From positions 1-64,000 of the forward strand of contig JAKIVC010000005.1 of the NCBI GenBank assembly GCA_021647245.1: a DNA stretch of 64,000 nucleotides, written 5' to 3'. The position numbers were made by a program, and so were the translations under genes. Positions 6,663-38,512 of this stretch are shown here, in pieces. The stretch comes from Gammaproteobacteria bacterium. GTDB lineage: Bacteria; Pseudomonadota; Gammaproteobacteria; RBG-16-57-12. The notes under the pieces are model-generated. The model did not search any database and was not told the origin of the DNA. It saw only the letters and a list, made by a program, of their open reading frames with translations. The stretch's first letter is position 1. The number at the start of each line of letters is the position of its first letter.

Positions 6663-7451
6663 TTACCTTTCGAGGAGCGCTCTGTTTGCCGTTAAACGAG
6701 CCAGTTCGTGGGGCTGATGCAGAATCTCTTTTCGTGCTTGCTTAAACAGCTTGCGCAGGCTCTTTTTCAGGTGGGGAAGTAGCTCCTGGTTATCAACTCC
6801 CTTTAGATGGCAAAATATCGCAAGGGCATAACACATCTGCTCTTCTGTTAGCTCCCCCATCAACTGAACGGATGGCACACGGCAGCTACCGCAACCACCC
6901 CGTTGAATATTAAAGGCGTTATTGGTAATAAAAAGGCCAAAACCGAGAAAGATAGTGAGCAGGTCGGTGGCAGGGCCACGCAACTCTTCACCACCGGGTG
7001 GTGGGGTCGGAATGGCACGCCCAAGCAGTACCGCAAGATTTTGTGCCAGTGCGGCGATCAGAGCATCCGGTTGGCGTAACGCCTGTGGATCGTAGGGGAT
7101 ATCAATCCACCCATCCCCTTCAACGCTGATCTCCGCATTGGGGCCGCGCAGTGCATTTTTAATCTGAATGTGAGGGGTCGGAGCAATCTCACTTTGAGGG
7201 TCGGCAGGGCGTGCCCGGCATGGCCACTGCTGCATTGCGCTATACTGCAACACTCGCTGTAATAGCGCATTGGCTGTCTCATCTGGTGAAGTGGCTCTGT
7301 CAGGGAAAAATTGATCATTAGCCAACACCAGTGATGTCTGCTGCTGAAACAGTTGCGCATCAAAATTATCCAGTGCCCAATTGAAGCTATCAAAGAGCCA
7401 TTGGGTGGTGCCTTCATCTAGCAGTTTTTTTGCTTTGAACAGACCGAACAT
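6663..7451 (-). CDS. Hypothetical protein, 262 aa
   Basis: Not recognised. The protein is soluble-looking, with no signal peptide. A Gly/Cys patch (GGCGSCRVPS) lies near residue 185, and the C-terminal third is a basic helical region (HLKKSLRKLFKQARKEI). The patch could bind a metal, but only two cysteines lie close together, so this is speculative. It is convergent with gpmI and divergent from the repeat protein at 7617. Confidence 0.7.
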   Translation of the reverse strand: MFGLFKAKKLLDEGTTQWLFDSFNWALDNFDAQLFQQQTSLVLANDQFFPDRATSPDETANALLQRVLQYSAMQQWPCRARPADPQSEIAPTPHIQIKNALRGPNAEISVEGDGWIDIPYDPQALRQPDALIAALAQNLAVLLGRAIPTPPPGGEELRGPATDLLTIFLGFGLFITNNAFNIQRGGCGSCRVPSVQLMGELTEEQMCYALAIFCHLKGVDNQELLPHLKKSLRKLFKQARKEILHQPHELARLTANRALLER

Positions 7452-7616
7452 TTTTAGGTCTTACTCCGATTAGTTTAATAATGGGGCCCCTGCACAATAT
7501 GAATCGTGAAAAGCTCACATAGAGGCAATCTTAACCACTTTCTTGTGGTGTGACTATTGTACTTGGCAAGTGAATGGTTTATATCTCTTCTAAATTACCA
7601 AAAAGGATCAGTTTGA

Positions 7617-8000
7617 ATGCGTATTTCAATGAAGCTAGTGACGCTGTTGGCGGTTGTGGGTTTATCAGCTTGGCCGTTGCTGAGCATGGCGGAGCCAGAC
7701 GAAAAGAGTGATTACTATAGTGCGAGTGAGTCAGATAATCGTCAAGACGGAGAAAAGCCTGGTAAAGAGCCGTGCGACAAAAAGGCCGCTGCTGCTTTAG
7801 GTGATGAGCCGTGCGACAAAAAGGCCGCCGCCGCTTTAGGTGATGAGCCGTGCGACAAAAAGGCCGCCGCCGCTTTAGGCGATGAGCCATGTGACAAAAA
7901 GGCCGCTGCTGCTTTAGGTGATGAGCCATGTGACAAAAAAGGGGAGTCGGATGACGAAAAGCCTTGCGATAAAGAGAAAAAATCTGCCGCAGAGGATTAA
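7617..8000 (+). CDS. Secreted Cys-containing tandem-repeat protein, 127 aa
   Basis: Family not recognised. A signal peptide ends near LLSMAEP and is followed by an acidic segment. Four exact 13-residue repeats of the pattern EPCDKKAAAALGD then appear, and two degenerate ones follow (EPCDKKGESDD, KPCDKEKK). Each repeat gives one Cys in an acidic/Lys-rich setting, so the mature protein has six regularly spaced cysteines. A role in metal binding or the cell envelope is possible but unproven. An ATG at 7629 would also give a good signal peptide. Confidence 0.7.
   Translation: MRISMKLVTLLAVVGLSAWPLLSMAEPDEKSDYYSASESDNRQDGEKPGKEPCDKKAAAALGDEPCDKKAAAALGDEPCDKKAAAALGDEPCDKKAAAALGDEPCDKKGESDDEKPCDKEKKSAAED
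7767..7922 (+). repeat. Four 39-bp tandem repeats inside a coding region
   Basis: Units start at 7767, 7806, 7845 and 7884, each 39 bases and in frame. They differ only by synonymous third-position changes (GCT/GCC, TGC/TGT, GGT/GGC). The protein sequence is constant while the DNA drifts, which points to selection on the peptide repeat. Confidence 0.9.
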
Positions 8001-10423: not shown

Positions 10424-10660
10424 GTGAGGTATGATTTAGAGCTCGATCTGTGTGGCTTGCAATGTCCGTTGCCTATTTTGCGCAGTAAGAAAGCATTAGC
10501 GAAGTTGGCAGCAGGCCAGGTGATACTCGTGACAGCGACGGATGTGGGGGCCTTAAAAGACTTTCCGGCTTTTTGTAAAGTAACCGGACACGCGTTGCTC
10601 GAGAGCTGGGAGAAGCAAGATGTGTTTCACTTTGTTATAAAAAAACGCCCCGAGGATTAG
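10424..10660 (+). CDS. TusA-family sulfur-carrier protein
   Basis: A 78-aa protein with the TusA/SirA core: LDLCGLQCPLPILRSKKAL contains the conserved CPxP with the persulfide-carrying Cys. Members pass sulfur to tRNA thiolation, molybdenum cofactor synthesis or sulfur-oxidation pathways; which applies here cannot be read from sequence. The start is a GTG preceded by a GGGGGA stretch. It is divergent from the BepA-like gene. Confidence 0.9.
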   Translation: MRYDLELDLCGLQCPLPILRSKKALAKLAAGQVILVTATDVGALKDFPAFCKVTGHALLESWEKQDVFHFVIKKRPED

Positions 10661-32705: not shown

Positions 32706-33998
32706 ATGTTGTTTAAAAAATATTTATCGGCAGGCGTATTCGCTTGTCTGGTGTTACCCGTCTGGGCAGTACCTTCCCCTGAGAGACCCCTCTCGACCCT
32801 GACCATTAGTGCTGATGTAGCGCAGTTAGTTGACCCATCACTCCAGGTTTTTATTCAGCAGGTGTGGCTCGATAGCCCAACAATTCAAGGGGCGCAAGCG
32901 GCGATTGAAGCGGCGCGGGCGCGAGTCGATGGCGCAGATCGCCCTCTTTATAACCCGGCCCTTGAACTGGAGGCCGAACGCACGGATGTGAATACGGCTT
33001 CAATCGGTTTTCGCCAAACGCTGGATTGGGGGGATAAGCGTCTGGCTAAAACGCGTATGGCCCACTCTGCGGTACGTTTCGCTGAGGCGGAATTTATAAC
33101 ACAACGCCAGCAGGTTGCGGTGGAAGCCCTAGAGGCGCTGGCGCACTACTTTACCGCACGCGAAATGCAAATGCTGTCGATGCAGCGTAGCCAGTTGATG
33201 AAAGGGTTTCTTGATACGGTGCAGCAGCGCCAGGCTGCGGGCGATATGGGGGCACTAGAGGGTACTTTGGCCCATGTTACTTATAGTGAAGCGTTAATGA
33301 AGCAAGCGGCGAGAGAGAGTGAGCTGGCCGAAGCTGAAGCGGCACTGCGGGCAGTGACCGGTTTTGATCACGTTAACTGGCCGCCGTTACCCCGTCAGCT
33401 GGCAGCACCTCCGAAGCGGATTGACCCTGCGCTACTTCAATCACTCCCCGCGCTTGCTGTGTTGCGTAGTCGAATGGAGCTAGCCAAGTCACGCATTGGT
33501 TTGGCGGAAAGCCAAGGGCAGTCTGACCCCACCATTGGCTTTCGTGCTGGCCGTGAGGGCTCTGAGCGCTTGCTGGGGCTGACGCTGGAGATCCCGCTAT
33601 TTGTGCGCAATAACTTTAAGGCGGGTGTCCGTGCAGCTTCTTATGATGCGGTGGTTGAAGAGCTGGCTTATCACGATGCTCATCGCCGCGCCAAAGCACG
33701 TCTTGAGGGTACGCTGGGGCGCTTCCATAACACCGCCCGTGCCTGGGCTGCCTGGGTTACCAACGGGAAACAGGCGCATCGTCAACAGATGAGTTTGCTG
33801 GAGCAGCTATGGCAGGCTGAAGAGTTGACCGCGACTGATTACCTGATTCAGGCGAAACAGAATATAGATACCCAGACCGCAGCGACGCGGTTGATGGGAG
33901 AGGTGTGGCGGGCGGCAATTAGCTGGCTGGATGCGTCAGCTCAGGTTGAAACATGGTTGGGTTTTACCCCTGCACAAACAGAGAATTCTGGAGAGTAA
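32706..33998 (+). CDS. czcC: CzcC-like outer-membrane factor (TolC family)
   Basis: Outer-membrane channel of a tripartite heavy-metal efflux pump. Signal peptide ends near VWAVPS. The 430-aa product has the paired helical-hairpin pattern of TolC proteins, with a LYNPALELEAER segment early on and long Ala/Gln/Glu-rich helices. Followed after four bases by the adaptor gene. Confidence 0.88.
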   Translation: MLFKKYLSAGVFACLVLPVWAVPSPERPLSTLTISADVAQLVDPSLQVFIQQVWLDSPTIQGAQAAIEAARARVDGADRPLYNPALELEAERTDVNTASIGFRQTLDWGDKRLAKTRMAHSAVRFAEAEFITQRQQVAVEALEALAHYFTAREMQMLSMQRSQLMKGFLDTVQQRQAAGDMGALEGTLAHVTYSEALMKQAARESELAEAEAALRAVTGFDHVNWPPLPRQLAAPPKRIDPALLQSLPALAVLRSRMELAKSRIGLAESQGQSDPTIGFRAGREGSERLLGLTLEIPLFVRNNFKAGVRAASYDAVVEELAYHDAHRRAKARLEGTLGRFHNTARAWAAWVTNGKQAHRQQMSLLEQLWQAEELTATDYLIQAKQNIDTQTAATRLMGEVWRAAISWLDASAQVETWLGFTPAQTENSGE

Positions 33999-34002
33999 GT
34001 AA

Positions 34003-35286
34003 ATGAAAAGCAGATTGATTTTATGGGTTTTATTGAGCCTGACAGCTCCCGGTACTGTTTTTGCTGGTGAGGGACATGGCCATGATGATGAGGGTCTGGA
34101 TGATTTTTCAGACATTGAAATGATCGAGAGCCATGGCCCGCACGGTGAAGAGGGGCATCAGCACGAAAAAGAGCAACATGAACATCAGGGTGATGGCCAT
34201 GAAGAGCACGGTCACGACCACGGTGGTCACGATGAGGCGGATGATGATGGTCACGGCCATGGTGAAGAGGTGAGTGATGTTGAGTTGAGCGAGACTCAGC
34301 GTCGTATCGCCGGTATTGAGACGATGATCGTTACACGCCAATCACTGGGTGGTGCCATCACCGCACCGGGTGAGGCGATATTGAATGCTTATCGAACGAC
34401 CAAGATAACACCTCGCACCGCTGCTCAAGTGATAAAGCGACACGCCTATCTTGGTGATCACGTCAAAAAGGGAGCGCGATTAATTACCCTCTCCAGTGTT
34501 GAGATGGCAGAAGCACAAGGGGCGTTGATGGAGGCGAGTGTTGAGCTGCGCCGCGTTGAGAAGCTGGGGCGTAAAGTGCTCTCTGAAAAGCGTTTTGTTG
34601 CCGCTCAAATAGCTTATCAGCAGGCTTACGCCAAGGTTAACGCCTACGGTATGACGAAGCAGCAGATCGAGTCTTTGATTGAAACCGGCGATGCCACGCG
34701 TGCCACGGGTGAATTTGACCTGCTCTCATTTCAAGATGGCACCCTCATTAGCGATGATTTTGTGGTGGGTGAGTTGATTGAGCCGGGTTATGTATTGATG
34801 GAGATCAGTGATGAGTCTCTGCTCTGGGTTGAGGCACGTCTAACACCGGATGATGCGGCCCGTATTGCACTGAAATCACCCGCCCAGGTGCAGGTTGGCA
34901 AGCGCTGGATGAGCGGGAAAGTTGTGCAGGCTCGCCACACACTGGATGCGACCACACGCACCCTGGCGGTGCATATTGAAGTGGAGAATCGCAACGATGA
35001 GCTACACCCTGGGCAGTTTGTGAATGTTGTTATCGAAGGTAATCAAAAACGTCAGGGTCTGGTGGTACCAGTAGCGGCAATTTTACGCAGCCCCGAGGGT
35101 GATTGGCAGCTGTTTGTGGAGATCGCCCCCGGTCGTTTTGAACCCAAAGAGGTGACGGTGCTGGATACGGTGGGTGACCGTATGTTGATTGAAGGTATTG
35201 AAGAGGGCACTACCATCGTGGGTAAAGGTGCTTTCTTTGTGCAGTCTGAAATGGCCAAGGGTGGCTTTGATCCGCACAACCATTAA
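34003..35286 (+). CDS. czcB: CzcB-like periplasmic adaptor with His-rich N-terminus
   Basis: Membrane-fusion protein linking the RND pump to the outer-membrane channel. Signal peptide ends near TVFAGE. A striking His/Asp/Glu/Gly-rich stretch (residues about 22-90, over 20 His) follows, then the alpha-hairpin and barrel-sandwich domains (GDHVKKGARLITLSS; DDFVVGELIEPGYVL). Length is 427 aa. The His-rich segment probably buffers or presents periplasmic metal. Confidence 0.9.
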   Translation: MKSRLILWVLLSLTAPGTVFAGEGHGHDDEGLDDFSDIEMIESHGPHGEEGHQHEKEQHEHQGDGHEEHGHDHGGHDEADDDGHGHGEEVSDVELSETQRRIAGIETMIVTRQSLGGAITAPGEAILNAYRTTKITPRTAAQVIKRHAYLGDHVKKGARLITLSSVEMAEAQGALMEASVELRRVEKLGRKVLSEKRFVAAQIAYQQAYAKVNAYGMTKQQIESLIETGDATRATGEFDLLSFQDGTLISDDFVVGELIEPGYVLMEISDESLLWVEARLTPDDAARIALKSPAQVQVGKRWMSGKVVQARHTLDATTRTLAVHIEVENRNDELHPGQFVNVVIEGNQKRQGLVVPVAAILRSPEGDWQLFVEIAPGRFEPKEVTVLDTVGDRMLIEGIEEGTTIVGKGAFFVQSEMAKGGFDPHNH

Positions 35287-35311
35287 TTAACTGAGCAGAG
35301 AGATAAAGATT

Positions 35312-38300
35312 ATGTTGAATCGTATTATCGACTGGTCAGTTATCAACCGTTTATTGGTTGTGATTGGTCTGCTGGCGTTAACAGCTGCTGCGACACTTAT
35401 TATTCCAAAACTGAACCTAGATGCCTTTCCTGATGTGACCAATGTTCAAGTTTCCATCAATACAGAAGCACCTGGCCTGGCCTCGGAAGAGGTTGAGCAG
35501 CTAATCACTTTTCCCATCGAAGCGGTGATGTATGCCCTGCCTGATGTGGAGCAGGTGCGTTCGATCTCCAAAACCGGCTTGTCCGGTATCACGGTGGTGT
35601 TCAAAGAGGGGAAAGATATCTACTTTGCCCGCCAGTTAGTATTTGAGCGATTGCAATCGGCAAAAGAGCTGATTCCCGACGGGGTGGGAATGCCCGAGAT
35701 TGGCCCCAATACTTCGGGCCTGGGGCAGATCTATCAATACCTGCTAGTGGCGGATGACAAAAGCCGCTTTGATGCCATGGCGCTGCGTAGTCTAAATGAC
35801 TGGGTGGTCAAATTGCTGCTGATGCCAGTGGATGGGGTGACCGAGGTACTCTCCTTTGGGGGAGATGTTAAGCAGTATCAGGTTAATCTGAATCCATCCC
35901 GTCTGCTGGCCTATGGGTTGAGTCAGCAGGATGTGGTTACAGCGCTGGAGAACAACAATGCCAATGCGGGCGGCTGGTATATGGATCGCGGTCAGGAGCA
36001 GTTGGTTATTCGCGGTGTCGGCTGGTTAAGTCATGATGAGCAGGGGCTGAAGGAGCTGCGACAAATTCCGCTGAAAACGGTGGATGGAACGGTGGTAACA
36101 GTGGCTCAGGTGGCTACGGTGGCACTGGGCAGTGAAATACGCCAAGGTGCCGTTACCATGACACGCCGCGATGCCCAAGGTGATCCGCAGGTGCTGGGTG
36201 AAGTGGTGGCCGGTATTGTGCTGAAACGGATGGGTTCCAATACCAAAAGCACCATTGACGGAATCGAAAGCCGTGTGGCGTTAATTCAGCAGGCCCTGCC
36301 TGAAGGCGTACGCTTTGAGGTCTTTTATGATCAGAGTGATCTGATCACCCAGGCGGTGAGCACGGTTGTTAATGCGCTGCTGCTGGCCTTCATATTTATT
36401 GTGGTGGTGCTGGCGCTGTTTTTAATGAACCTGCGGGCGACTTTTCTGGTGCTGATCTCGATTCCCATCTCCATTGGTATCGCGCTGATGATCATGGCCT
36501 GGTTTGGCCTCTCAGCCAACCTGATGTCACTGGGTGGCATTGCGGTGGCTATTGGTATGTTGGTGGATGGTTCGGTAGTGATGGTGGACAATATGTTCAA
36601 ACACCTCACACACCCCGATGCCGAACATGACAAACAAGCCCATGCCCGTGCAGGCGCTCAAGATGCAGACCCCTATGATGTCGCCCATGATAAAAACGGC
36701 ATTGCGTTACGGCTGCAAATTGCCGGCAGGGAGGTGGCGCGTCCGATATTTTTTGCCACCTCAATTATTCTGGTGGTGTTTTTACCGCTGTTCAGTTTTG
36801 AAGGTGTTGAGGCGAAGCTGTTTCAGCCTATGGCCATCAGCATTATGCTGGCAGTGGTGGCGGCAGCTTTTGTCGCGCTGATCATTGTGCCGGCACTGGC
36901 CACCTACCTGTTCCGCCACGGCGTGCGCGAAAAAGAGAGCTTTGTTCTCAAGCCGTTGGATAAGCTTTATCGTCGTGGTTTGCGTTGGGCGCTAAAAAGA
37001 ACCCGCATCGTAGTGGGTGGAGCGGTGTTGCTGATGATAGCTACAGTCGCACTGGTACCGCAGTTAGGTACCGAGTTTGTGCCAGAGCTAGAAGAGGGAA
37101 CCATCAATCTGCGCGTTACACTAGCCCCTTCGGCCAGCCTGGAGACAGCACTCACGGTTGCCCCAAAACTGGAAACGATGTTACTGGAGTTCCCCGAAGT
37201 CACTTACGCCTTGAGTCGAGTGGGCCGCCCAGAAATTGGCGGTGACCCAGAGCCGGTTAACAATATCGAAATATATATTGGCTTGAAACCGGTGAGTGAG
37301 TGGAGCAGTGCCCGCAATCGCCAGGAGTTGCAAGGATTGATGGAACATAAGCTGGAGCAACACCCCGGCCTACTGCTCAACTTTTCACAACCCATAGCGA
37401 CCCGAGTGGATGAGCTACTGTCAGGCGTGAAGGCGCAGCTGGCGATTAAACTATTTGGCCCTGATCTGGCGGTATTAGCAGAGAAGGGTGCGGCTATTGA
37501 ACAAGTGATACAAAGTGTTGACGGTGCGCGGGATGTGGCAATGGAACAGATTGTCGGCGAAGCGCAACTGGTGATACGACCCGACAGAGCGCAGCTCTCC
37601 CGTTATGGGTTAGCCGTGGGTGATGTGATGGCGATTGTCCGGGATGGCCTGGGTGGTCGCGAGGCGGGGCAGATCATCAATGGCAATGAGCGCTACGACA
37701 TCTATGTTCGTCTAGCCGAATCGTTCCGCGTTGATCCGACTGCGATTAACAACCTGCGCCTGCAAGCACCCACGGGTGCCTGGGTAAGGTTAGGAGATGT
37801 TGCCCAAATCAGCATTGAATCCGGGCCGCCCCAAGTGCGCCGAGACGATGTGCAGCGGCGTGTAGTCATTCAAGCCAATGTACAGGGGCGTGATATGGGC
37901 GGTGTGGTAGCAGACATCCAGCGTGCGATTGCAGAACAAGTAGAGCTACCCTCCGGTTACTCGGTCGATATTGGAGGACAATTTGAGAGCCAGCAGCGAG
38001 CGCAACAACGGCTCAGTATGATTGTACCGCTCTCTTTGGCACTGATTGCACTGCTACTCTACTTCGCATTCAACTCAGTCGGTCAGGCACTGCTTATCTT
38101 GGTCAACGTACCGCTGGCGGTGATTGGTGGAGTCTTCGCCCTCTACCTCTCCGGGCAGTACCTCTCGGTACCCAGCTCTATCGGCTTCATTACCCTGTTT
38201 GGCGTTGCGGTACTGAATGGCGTAGTCATGGTGGAGAGCATAAATCAACGGATAGCGGATGGATTGTCGGTGGAAGAGGCTGTTTTCAGTGGCGCAACCT

Positions 38301-38512
38301 CACGTTTGCGCCCCGTATTGATGACCGCCATCACCTCGGCACTCGGACTCATACCGATGCTGATTTCGACTGGCGTAGGGGCCGAAATTCAAAAACCCCT
38401 GGCCACGGTGATTGTAGGTGGGCTACTCAGCGCCACCTTCTTAACCCTGTTTATCTTACCCACCCTGTTCGCCTGGTTCTCCAAAGCTAAGCTAGGAGGC
38501 TGTCGGGCTTAG
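35312..38512 (+). CDS. czcA: Heavy-metal efflux RND permease, CzcA family
   Basis: Proton-driven inner-membrane pump of 1066 aa with 12 membrane segments and two large periplasmic loops (QVSINTEAPGL and INLRVTLAPSA starts). The TM4 motif reads GGIAVAIGMLVDGSVVMVDN. It lacks the DFG of zinc/cobalt CzcA-type HME-1 pumps and looks closer to the CusA/HME-3 or -4 pattern, so the metal is uncertain. Its last five residues before the stop and the stop itself are encoded by the MITE starting at 38495. Confidence 0.9.
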   Translation: MLNRIIDWSVINRLLVVIGLLALTAAATLIIPKLNLDAFPDVTNVQVSINTEAPGLASEEVEQLITFPIEAVMYALPDVEQVRSISKTGLSGITVVFKEGKDIYFARQLVFERLQSAKELIPDGVGMPEIGPNTSGLGQIYQYLLVADDKSRFDAMALRSLNDWVVKLLLMPVDGVTEVLSFGGDVKQYQVNLNPSRLLAYGLSQQDVVTALENNNANAGGWYMDRGQEQLVIRGVGWLSHDEQGLKELRQIPLKTVDGTVVTVAQVATVALGSEIRQGAVTMTRRDAQGDPQVLGEVVAGIVLKRMGSNTKSTIDGIESRVALIQQALPEGVRFEVFYDQSDLITQAVSTVVNALLLAFIFIVVVLALFLMNLRATFLVLISIPISIGIALMIMAWFGLSANLMSLGGIAVAIGMLVDGSVVMVDNMFKHLTHPDAEHDKQAHARAGAQDADPYDVAHDKNGIALRLQIAGREVARPIFFATSIILVVFLPLFSFEGVEAKLFQPMAISIMLAVVAAAFVALIIVPALATYLFRHGVREKESFVLKPLDKLYRRGLRWALKRTRIVVGGAVLLMIATVALVPQLGTEFVPELEEGTINLRVTLAPSASLETALTVAPKLETMLLEFPEVTYALSRVGRPEIGGDPEPVNNIEIYIGLKPVSEWSSARNRQELQGLMEHKLEQHPGLLLNFSQPIATRVDELLSGVKAQLAIKLFGPDLAVLAEKGAAIEQVIQSVDGARDVAMEQIVGEAQLVIRPDRAQLSRYGLAVGDVMAIVRDGLGGREAGQIINGNERYDIYVRLAESFRVDPTAINNLRLQAPTGAWVRLGDVAQISIESGPPQVRRDDVQRRVVIQANVQGRDMGGVVADIQRAIAEQVELPSGYSVDIGGQFESQQRAQQRLSMIVPLSLALIALLLYFAFNSVGQALLILVNVPLAVIGGVFALYLSGQYLSVPSSIGFITLFGVAVLNGVVMVESINQRIADGLSVEEAVFSGATSRLRPVLMTAITSALGLIPMLISTGVGAEIQKPLATVIVGGLLSATFLTLFILPTLFAWFSKAKLGGCRA

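Follow-up and report, generated by a model that had tools for sequence, protein, structure and literature searches.

Metallothioneins are small cytosolic proteins whose cysteines are grouped in CxC and CC clusters and which are disordered when empty. Exported proteins built from cysteine repeats are represented by the Buf_EGKCG/oxazolin precursors, which carry a variable number of cysteine units and bind copper; they are MNIO-modified RiPPs made of 17-residue repeats with two cysteine motifs each, and the gene for the MNIO enzyme normally adjoins that of the precursor (PMC12452194). Within the window, by which we mean the whole stretch of 64,000 nucleotides that was analysed, we examined a gene for a 127-residue protein with Pro-Cys repeats (Table 1). 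The protein shares with the Buf_EGKCG/oxazolin precursors cysteine repeats, a variable repeat number and an overlapping size range, and its N-terminus reads by eye like the Sec signal that they carry, but it has EPCDKK where they have EGKCG, and no MNIO enzyme accompanies it. Like metallothioneins it is small, offers cysteine as its main possible ligand and would be disordered when empty; unlike them it carries an apparent export signal and single cysteines, none of which lies in a CxC or CC cluster.

Table 1. Features of the repeat locus and its upstream region (coordinates refer to the window).
Feature	Position	Strand	Details and basis
Divergent neighbour, 262 aa, unnamed gammaproteobacterial family	6663..7451	-	Adjoins the repeat gene in 3/3 genus genomes
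Conserved upstream segment	7522..7591	+	About 70 bp identical in G002 (alignment)
Likely ribosome-binding site AAGGA	7603..7607	+	Sequence; AGG invariant in three species
Pro-Cys repeat protein gene	7617..8000	+	ATG start, TAA stop, 127 aa; orthologues in 3/3 genus genomes
Putative signal peptide, residues 1-25	7617..7691	+	Predicted cleavage between A25 and E26; by eye; conserved in 3 species
Acidic linker, residues 26-50, fast-changing	7692..7766	+	Codon changes G000 v G002; alignment
Four exact EPCDKKAAAALGD units, 39 nt each	7767..7922	+	7767-7805, 7806-7844, 7845-7883, 7884-7922; TRF and unit comparison
Degenerate unit EPCDKKGESDD	7923-7955	+	Sequence
Degenerate unit EKPCDKEKKSAAED	7956-7997	+	Sequence

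The gene and its units are confirmed. An initial annotation of this DNA had proposed four repeats identical in protein and different in synonymous bases, followed by two degenerate ones, and this description holds. TRF detected the array with a period of 39 nt, 4.4 copies and a score of 283, the highest of the six arrays in the window. Units 1-4 vary in 5 of 39 columns, all of them third codon positions of the plus frame, a pattern that would have a probability of (1/3)^5 = 0.004 were the three codon positions equivalent. Each unit contributes one cysteine, and the six are spaced as regularly as had been claimed (residues 53, 66, 79, 92, 105, and 117). The window has 330 stop-to-stop frames that span 60 aa or more, and the frame of the repeat gene, with six PCD motifs, is the only one that contains two or more. 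As a caveat on the choice of frame, the antisense frame at 7742-7936 keeps an identical repeat as well; the plus frame is preferred because it has the signal peptide and an AAGGA placed 9 nt ahead of its start codon, and because codons 1-26 are conserved in the relatives. Between G000 (the genome of the window) and G002 (a relative from the same genus), the changed codons among codons 1-26 comprise nine synonymous and three non-synonymous, and those of linker codons 27-50 one synonymous and seven non-synonymous.

The proposal of a small exported protein also stood up, insofar as the N-terminus (MRISMK, a hydrophobic core, then SMA followed by E, read by eye) reads as a Sec signal peptide that is conserved in three species. 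Inspection of the sequence revealed no lipobox cysteine, and, given a Sec-type signal that no anchor accompanies, the periplasm is as likely a destination as the surface proposed in the initial annotation. The mature chain of about 102 residues contains 17 D, 13 E, 17 K, 19 A, and 6 C, with a net charge of -12; I, L, V, M, F, W, and Y together account for six residues, and histidine is absent. A structure model built from a three-row alignment reached a mean pLDDT of 43.9 and showed no fold past the signal helix, its only long helix, which lends weak support to a disordered mature chain.

The gene was found in all three genomes of the genus present in our set (G000, G001, and G002, 99-100% complete, the last counted as one genome with record JALSJH010000003.1), always beside the same divergent neighbour. 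The protein of G000 has 6 Cys, that of G002 has 164 aa and 8 Cys in units EPCDKKAAAAAGD, and that of G001 is 99 aa long with 4 Cys, its mature part containing 7 His. The repeat number, which the initial annotation had suggested may vary between strains, varies between the species compared (6, 8, and 4 Cys). Homologues without repeats or with unconserved cysteines, which the initial annotation had set against its own reading, did not appear: both homologues keep Cys-centred repeats. The units of G001 are fewer and looser (EPCDSKK twice, EKPCDKKK once, and one KPCHH at the site of the first Cys), and in the alignment its linker is His-rich with an extra Cys. Cysteines lie 12-14 residues apart with a single gap of 22, in G001, and an (E/K)PCD(S)KK core is kept across the three species while the linkers differ by species. 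Each of the four exact units of G000 has Leu at position 11, where the regular units of G002 have Ala, from which it seems that the two arrays were multiplied or homogenised separately. Both flanking genes are common to G000 and G002; G001 shares the divergent 262-aa neighbour alone.

These genomes also bear on whether the protein could be a bufferin-like RiPP precursor, with cysteines that bind copper after modification by an MNIO enzyme. Its apparent Sec-type signal, short length and repeated cysteine motif in variable number are as in the Buf_EGKCG/oxazolin precursors (PMC12452194). Against this, PF05114 (MNIO) had no match at E <= 0.001 in any of the three genomes, each 99-100% complete, while 2 of 14 controls did match; no MNIO gene was read among the neighbours of the repeat gene in the genus genomes, and the EGKCG motif is absent from the protein. 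We therefore rule out membership of the bufferins, given that no genus genome has the enzyme, and regard a bufferin-like precursor as very improbable.

Upstream of the repeat gene lies an inverted repeat, ACCAC-TTTCTT-GTGGT (7534-7549), whose counterpart in G001 is ACTAT-TATTCC-ATAGT, so that in the three-sequence alignment both partners differ in two of the five pairs; it could form an RNA hairpin or serve as an operator. A sigma-70 scan of the upstream segment returned no promoter-like site. The divergent neighbour had no Pfam or NCBIfam family above cut-off, and a comparison of its model (mean pLDDT 81) with the PDB gave nothing at E <= 0.001, the best match having an E of 0.39. Its family is present in 9 of 56 genomes searched, and in all six non-genus genomes the Pro-Cys repeat gene is absent from the 1.5 kb upstream of the neighbour gene; a loose PC..PC match upstream of one neighbour homologue (L036) was judged not to be a repeat gene. 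Two cysteines of a GCxxC motif in the neighbour are invariant in five aligned members, not in all nine.

Beyond the genus, the family is represented in the set by one more genome (G003, 86% complete), which gave only a chance-level match (E 0.98). Matches at E <= 0.001 were obtained in 4 of 369 genomes of the class, namely the three of the genus and a spurious one, G118 (E 2.8e-4), where the match overlaps an IF-2-like repeat-bearing ORF on the opposite strand. A draw across the phylum, which overlaps that of the class, yielded 3 of 398: G000 and two spurious cases, G414 (E 7.6e-8 and 3.6e-4), a EPLELKEGELAGE repeat without Cys, and G590 (E 6.1e-4), with five in-frame stops. Credible relatives were thus found in none of the 366 other class genomes or the 397 others of the phylum draw. 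Two further matches in the genome of the window (E 0.05 and 0.7) correspond to the antisense of the gene itself and to chance. As a DNA pattern, EPCDKK is multi-copy only in G000 (5) and G002 (7) of the 369 class genomes, and G023, G145, G286, and G303 (loci L038-L041) each hold an isolated single EPCDKK-type match with one PCD. A scan of the genome contigs collection gave 23 pattern stretches and one relative, and one of viral contigs gave 43 stretches and no relative. No phage match to the protein was found, and the two plasmid records that matched (both 3e-4) are spurious, one lying on the strand opposite to an annotated gene of a Nitratiruptor plasmid and the other at the same place in a sister Nitratiruptor plasmid.

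In agreement with the earlier statement that no family is recognised, Pfam and NCBIfam gave no match above cut-off, Lysostaphin_N (E 0.014, below cut-off) being judged a composition match. PDB likewise held no credible relative, with only a weak match to Rhoptry neck protein 4 (E 0.013) that we attribute to composition. The strings NPCAAK, EPCDKK, CAAKNPC, and PCDKKAAA were absent from the open-access literature searched, and nothing was found there on this repeat protein. Judged by its sequence, then, the protein is a new family, apparently confined to one poorly known genus.

The initial suggestion of metal binding, cross-linking or thiol chemistry is plausible but unproven. From the features above we infer export, disorder, free thiols, metal binding and a role as follows, at a probability of about 0.38: the protein would be exported as a disordered chain with many thiols and would buffer soft metals, its capacity scaling with unit number. 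The Sec signal peptide would be removed and the acidic mature chain kept in the periplasm or released outside. Each (E/K)PCD(S)KK unit would present one thiolate between carboxylates, and two or three such units along one flexible chain might jointly bind a soft metal ion such as Cu(I), Zn or Cd. Unit number would set the buffer capacity and could easily be changed when the 39-nt array undergoes slippage or recombines unequally.

Several observations count in favour of such a metal buffer. The cysteine core is kept while linkers change, unit number varies between species, and the species with the fewest cysteines has the 7 His, as if one soft-metal ligand were replacing another. The lack of a fold in the model, weak as a three-row alignment makes it, points the same way, and the copper-binding exported precursors (PMC12452194) provide a precedent. 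The organism also has a CusA/CzcA-family metal efflux operon (32706-38512, plus strand; pump and adaptor within 34003-38512) with a strongly His-rich N-terminal part of the adaptor, which counts for the metal buffer but lies 26 kb from the repeat gene. On the other side, one cysteine per 12-14 residues is sparse for chelation, metallothionein-type CxC/CC clusters are missing, the protein of the window lacks histidine, and no metal gene was read among the flanking genes of the neighbourhood shared by the genus genomes. Restriction to a single genus argues against a core role.

Two further observations count against the metal buffer and in favour of its main rival, a disulfide-linked chain. DsbB is encoded in all three genus genomes, which could lead to the oxidation of exported thiols, and the number of cysteines is even in all three species, which fits pairing and would arise by chance in 1 of 8 cases. 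Dsb-oxidised cysteines could then close loops inside one chain or tie separate chains together, in an envelope or extracellular network or as a redox sink, for which regular cysteine spacing on a flexible chain is well suited. However, Pfam and NCBIfam revealed no assembly partner or anchoring domain, the composition is strongly acidic and soluble, and the His enrichment in G001 finds no explanation in cross-linking. We consider this chain possible, though on the unlikely side.

The conservation itself could be given a different reading, in which the gene is a young orphan encoding a low-complexity exported protein, its array expanded by slippage and its cysteines of little function. Its presence in one genus only and the fast change of the linker agree with this, and array homogenisation makes part of the conservation mechanical. 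Yet the cysteine core survives in units that are not exact, and also in G001, which has no homogenised array, while the signal peptide, the start region and the upstream DNA are conserved as well; a young orphan is therefore rather unlikely in our judgement.

Pro-Cys repeats of another kind were found with the motif NPCAAK, searched in the 369 class genomes. It matched in 24 of them and was multi-copy in five (G054 17, G127 8, G017 6, G138 3, and G264 2), with no match in G000, G001, G002, or G003. In the five multi-copy loci, which are those we read of the 24, the motif lies within ORFs, most of them with signal-like N-termini, and in G127 and G017 the repeats are joined to a cytochrome of the SoxA/TsdA type (match to PF21342 above cut-off). 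These proteins share with ours a signal-like N-terminal segment followed by Pro-Cys units, and several are short; they differ in a six-residue unit, far denser cysteines, the cytochrome fusion of two of them and the lack of any alignable relation. Such loci show that Pro-Cys repeats with apparent export signals recur in the class Gammaproteobacteria. Among these loci (L069-L073), a test identified a DUF6969 gene near the repeats of L069, genes that look similar by eye lie in L070 and L073, and L070 contains a thioredoxin-like gene; the loci possibly represent an unnamed periplasmic thiol or sulfur system.

The attachment to SoxA/TsdA-type cytochromes is one of two hints that the protein might be a periplasmic sulfur or persulfide carrier, holding sulfane sulfur on each cysteine. 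The other is a TusA-like gene 2.4 kb away (10424-10660), which scored 60.4 bits, under the model cut-off of 78; TusA, however, is cytoplasmic and common. Moreover, the cytochrome-linked repeats are of the NPCAAK type, which has no match in this genus, and neither dsrA nor soxB had a match above cut-off in any of the three genus genomes. A carrier for Sox/rDsr was rejected on the latter ground, weaker matches occurring in control genomes too, and a sulfur carrier in general seems improbable.

Returning to the metal buffer, a more specific version of it, which we put forward as doubtful, is that the protein would be a counterpart of the bufferins that is unmodified and specific to this genus. 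As a disordered polythiol outside the cytoplasm, it would buffer soft metals through sparse, evenly spaced single-Cys units instead of cysteine clusters or thiooxazole groups, repeat number would tune its capacity, and it would be one of several exported Pro-Cys repeat proteins that arose independently in Gammaproteobacteria. If the protein binds metal, it would show that MNIO modification is not needed for an exported Cys-repeat buffer to arise, and the number of its very simple units would give the capacity directly. Should it bind none, it would be an instructive case of a young exported repeat protein. Seen alongside the NPCAAK proteins, it points to exported Pro-Cys repeats as a design that recurs and has been overlooked.
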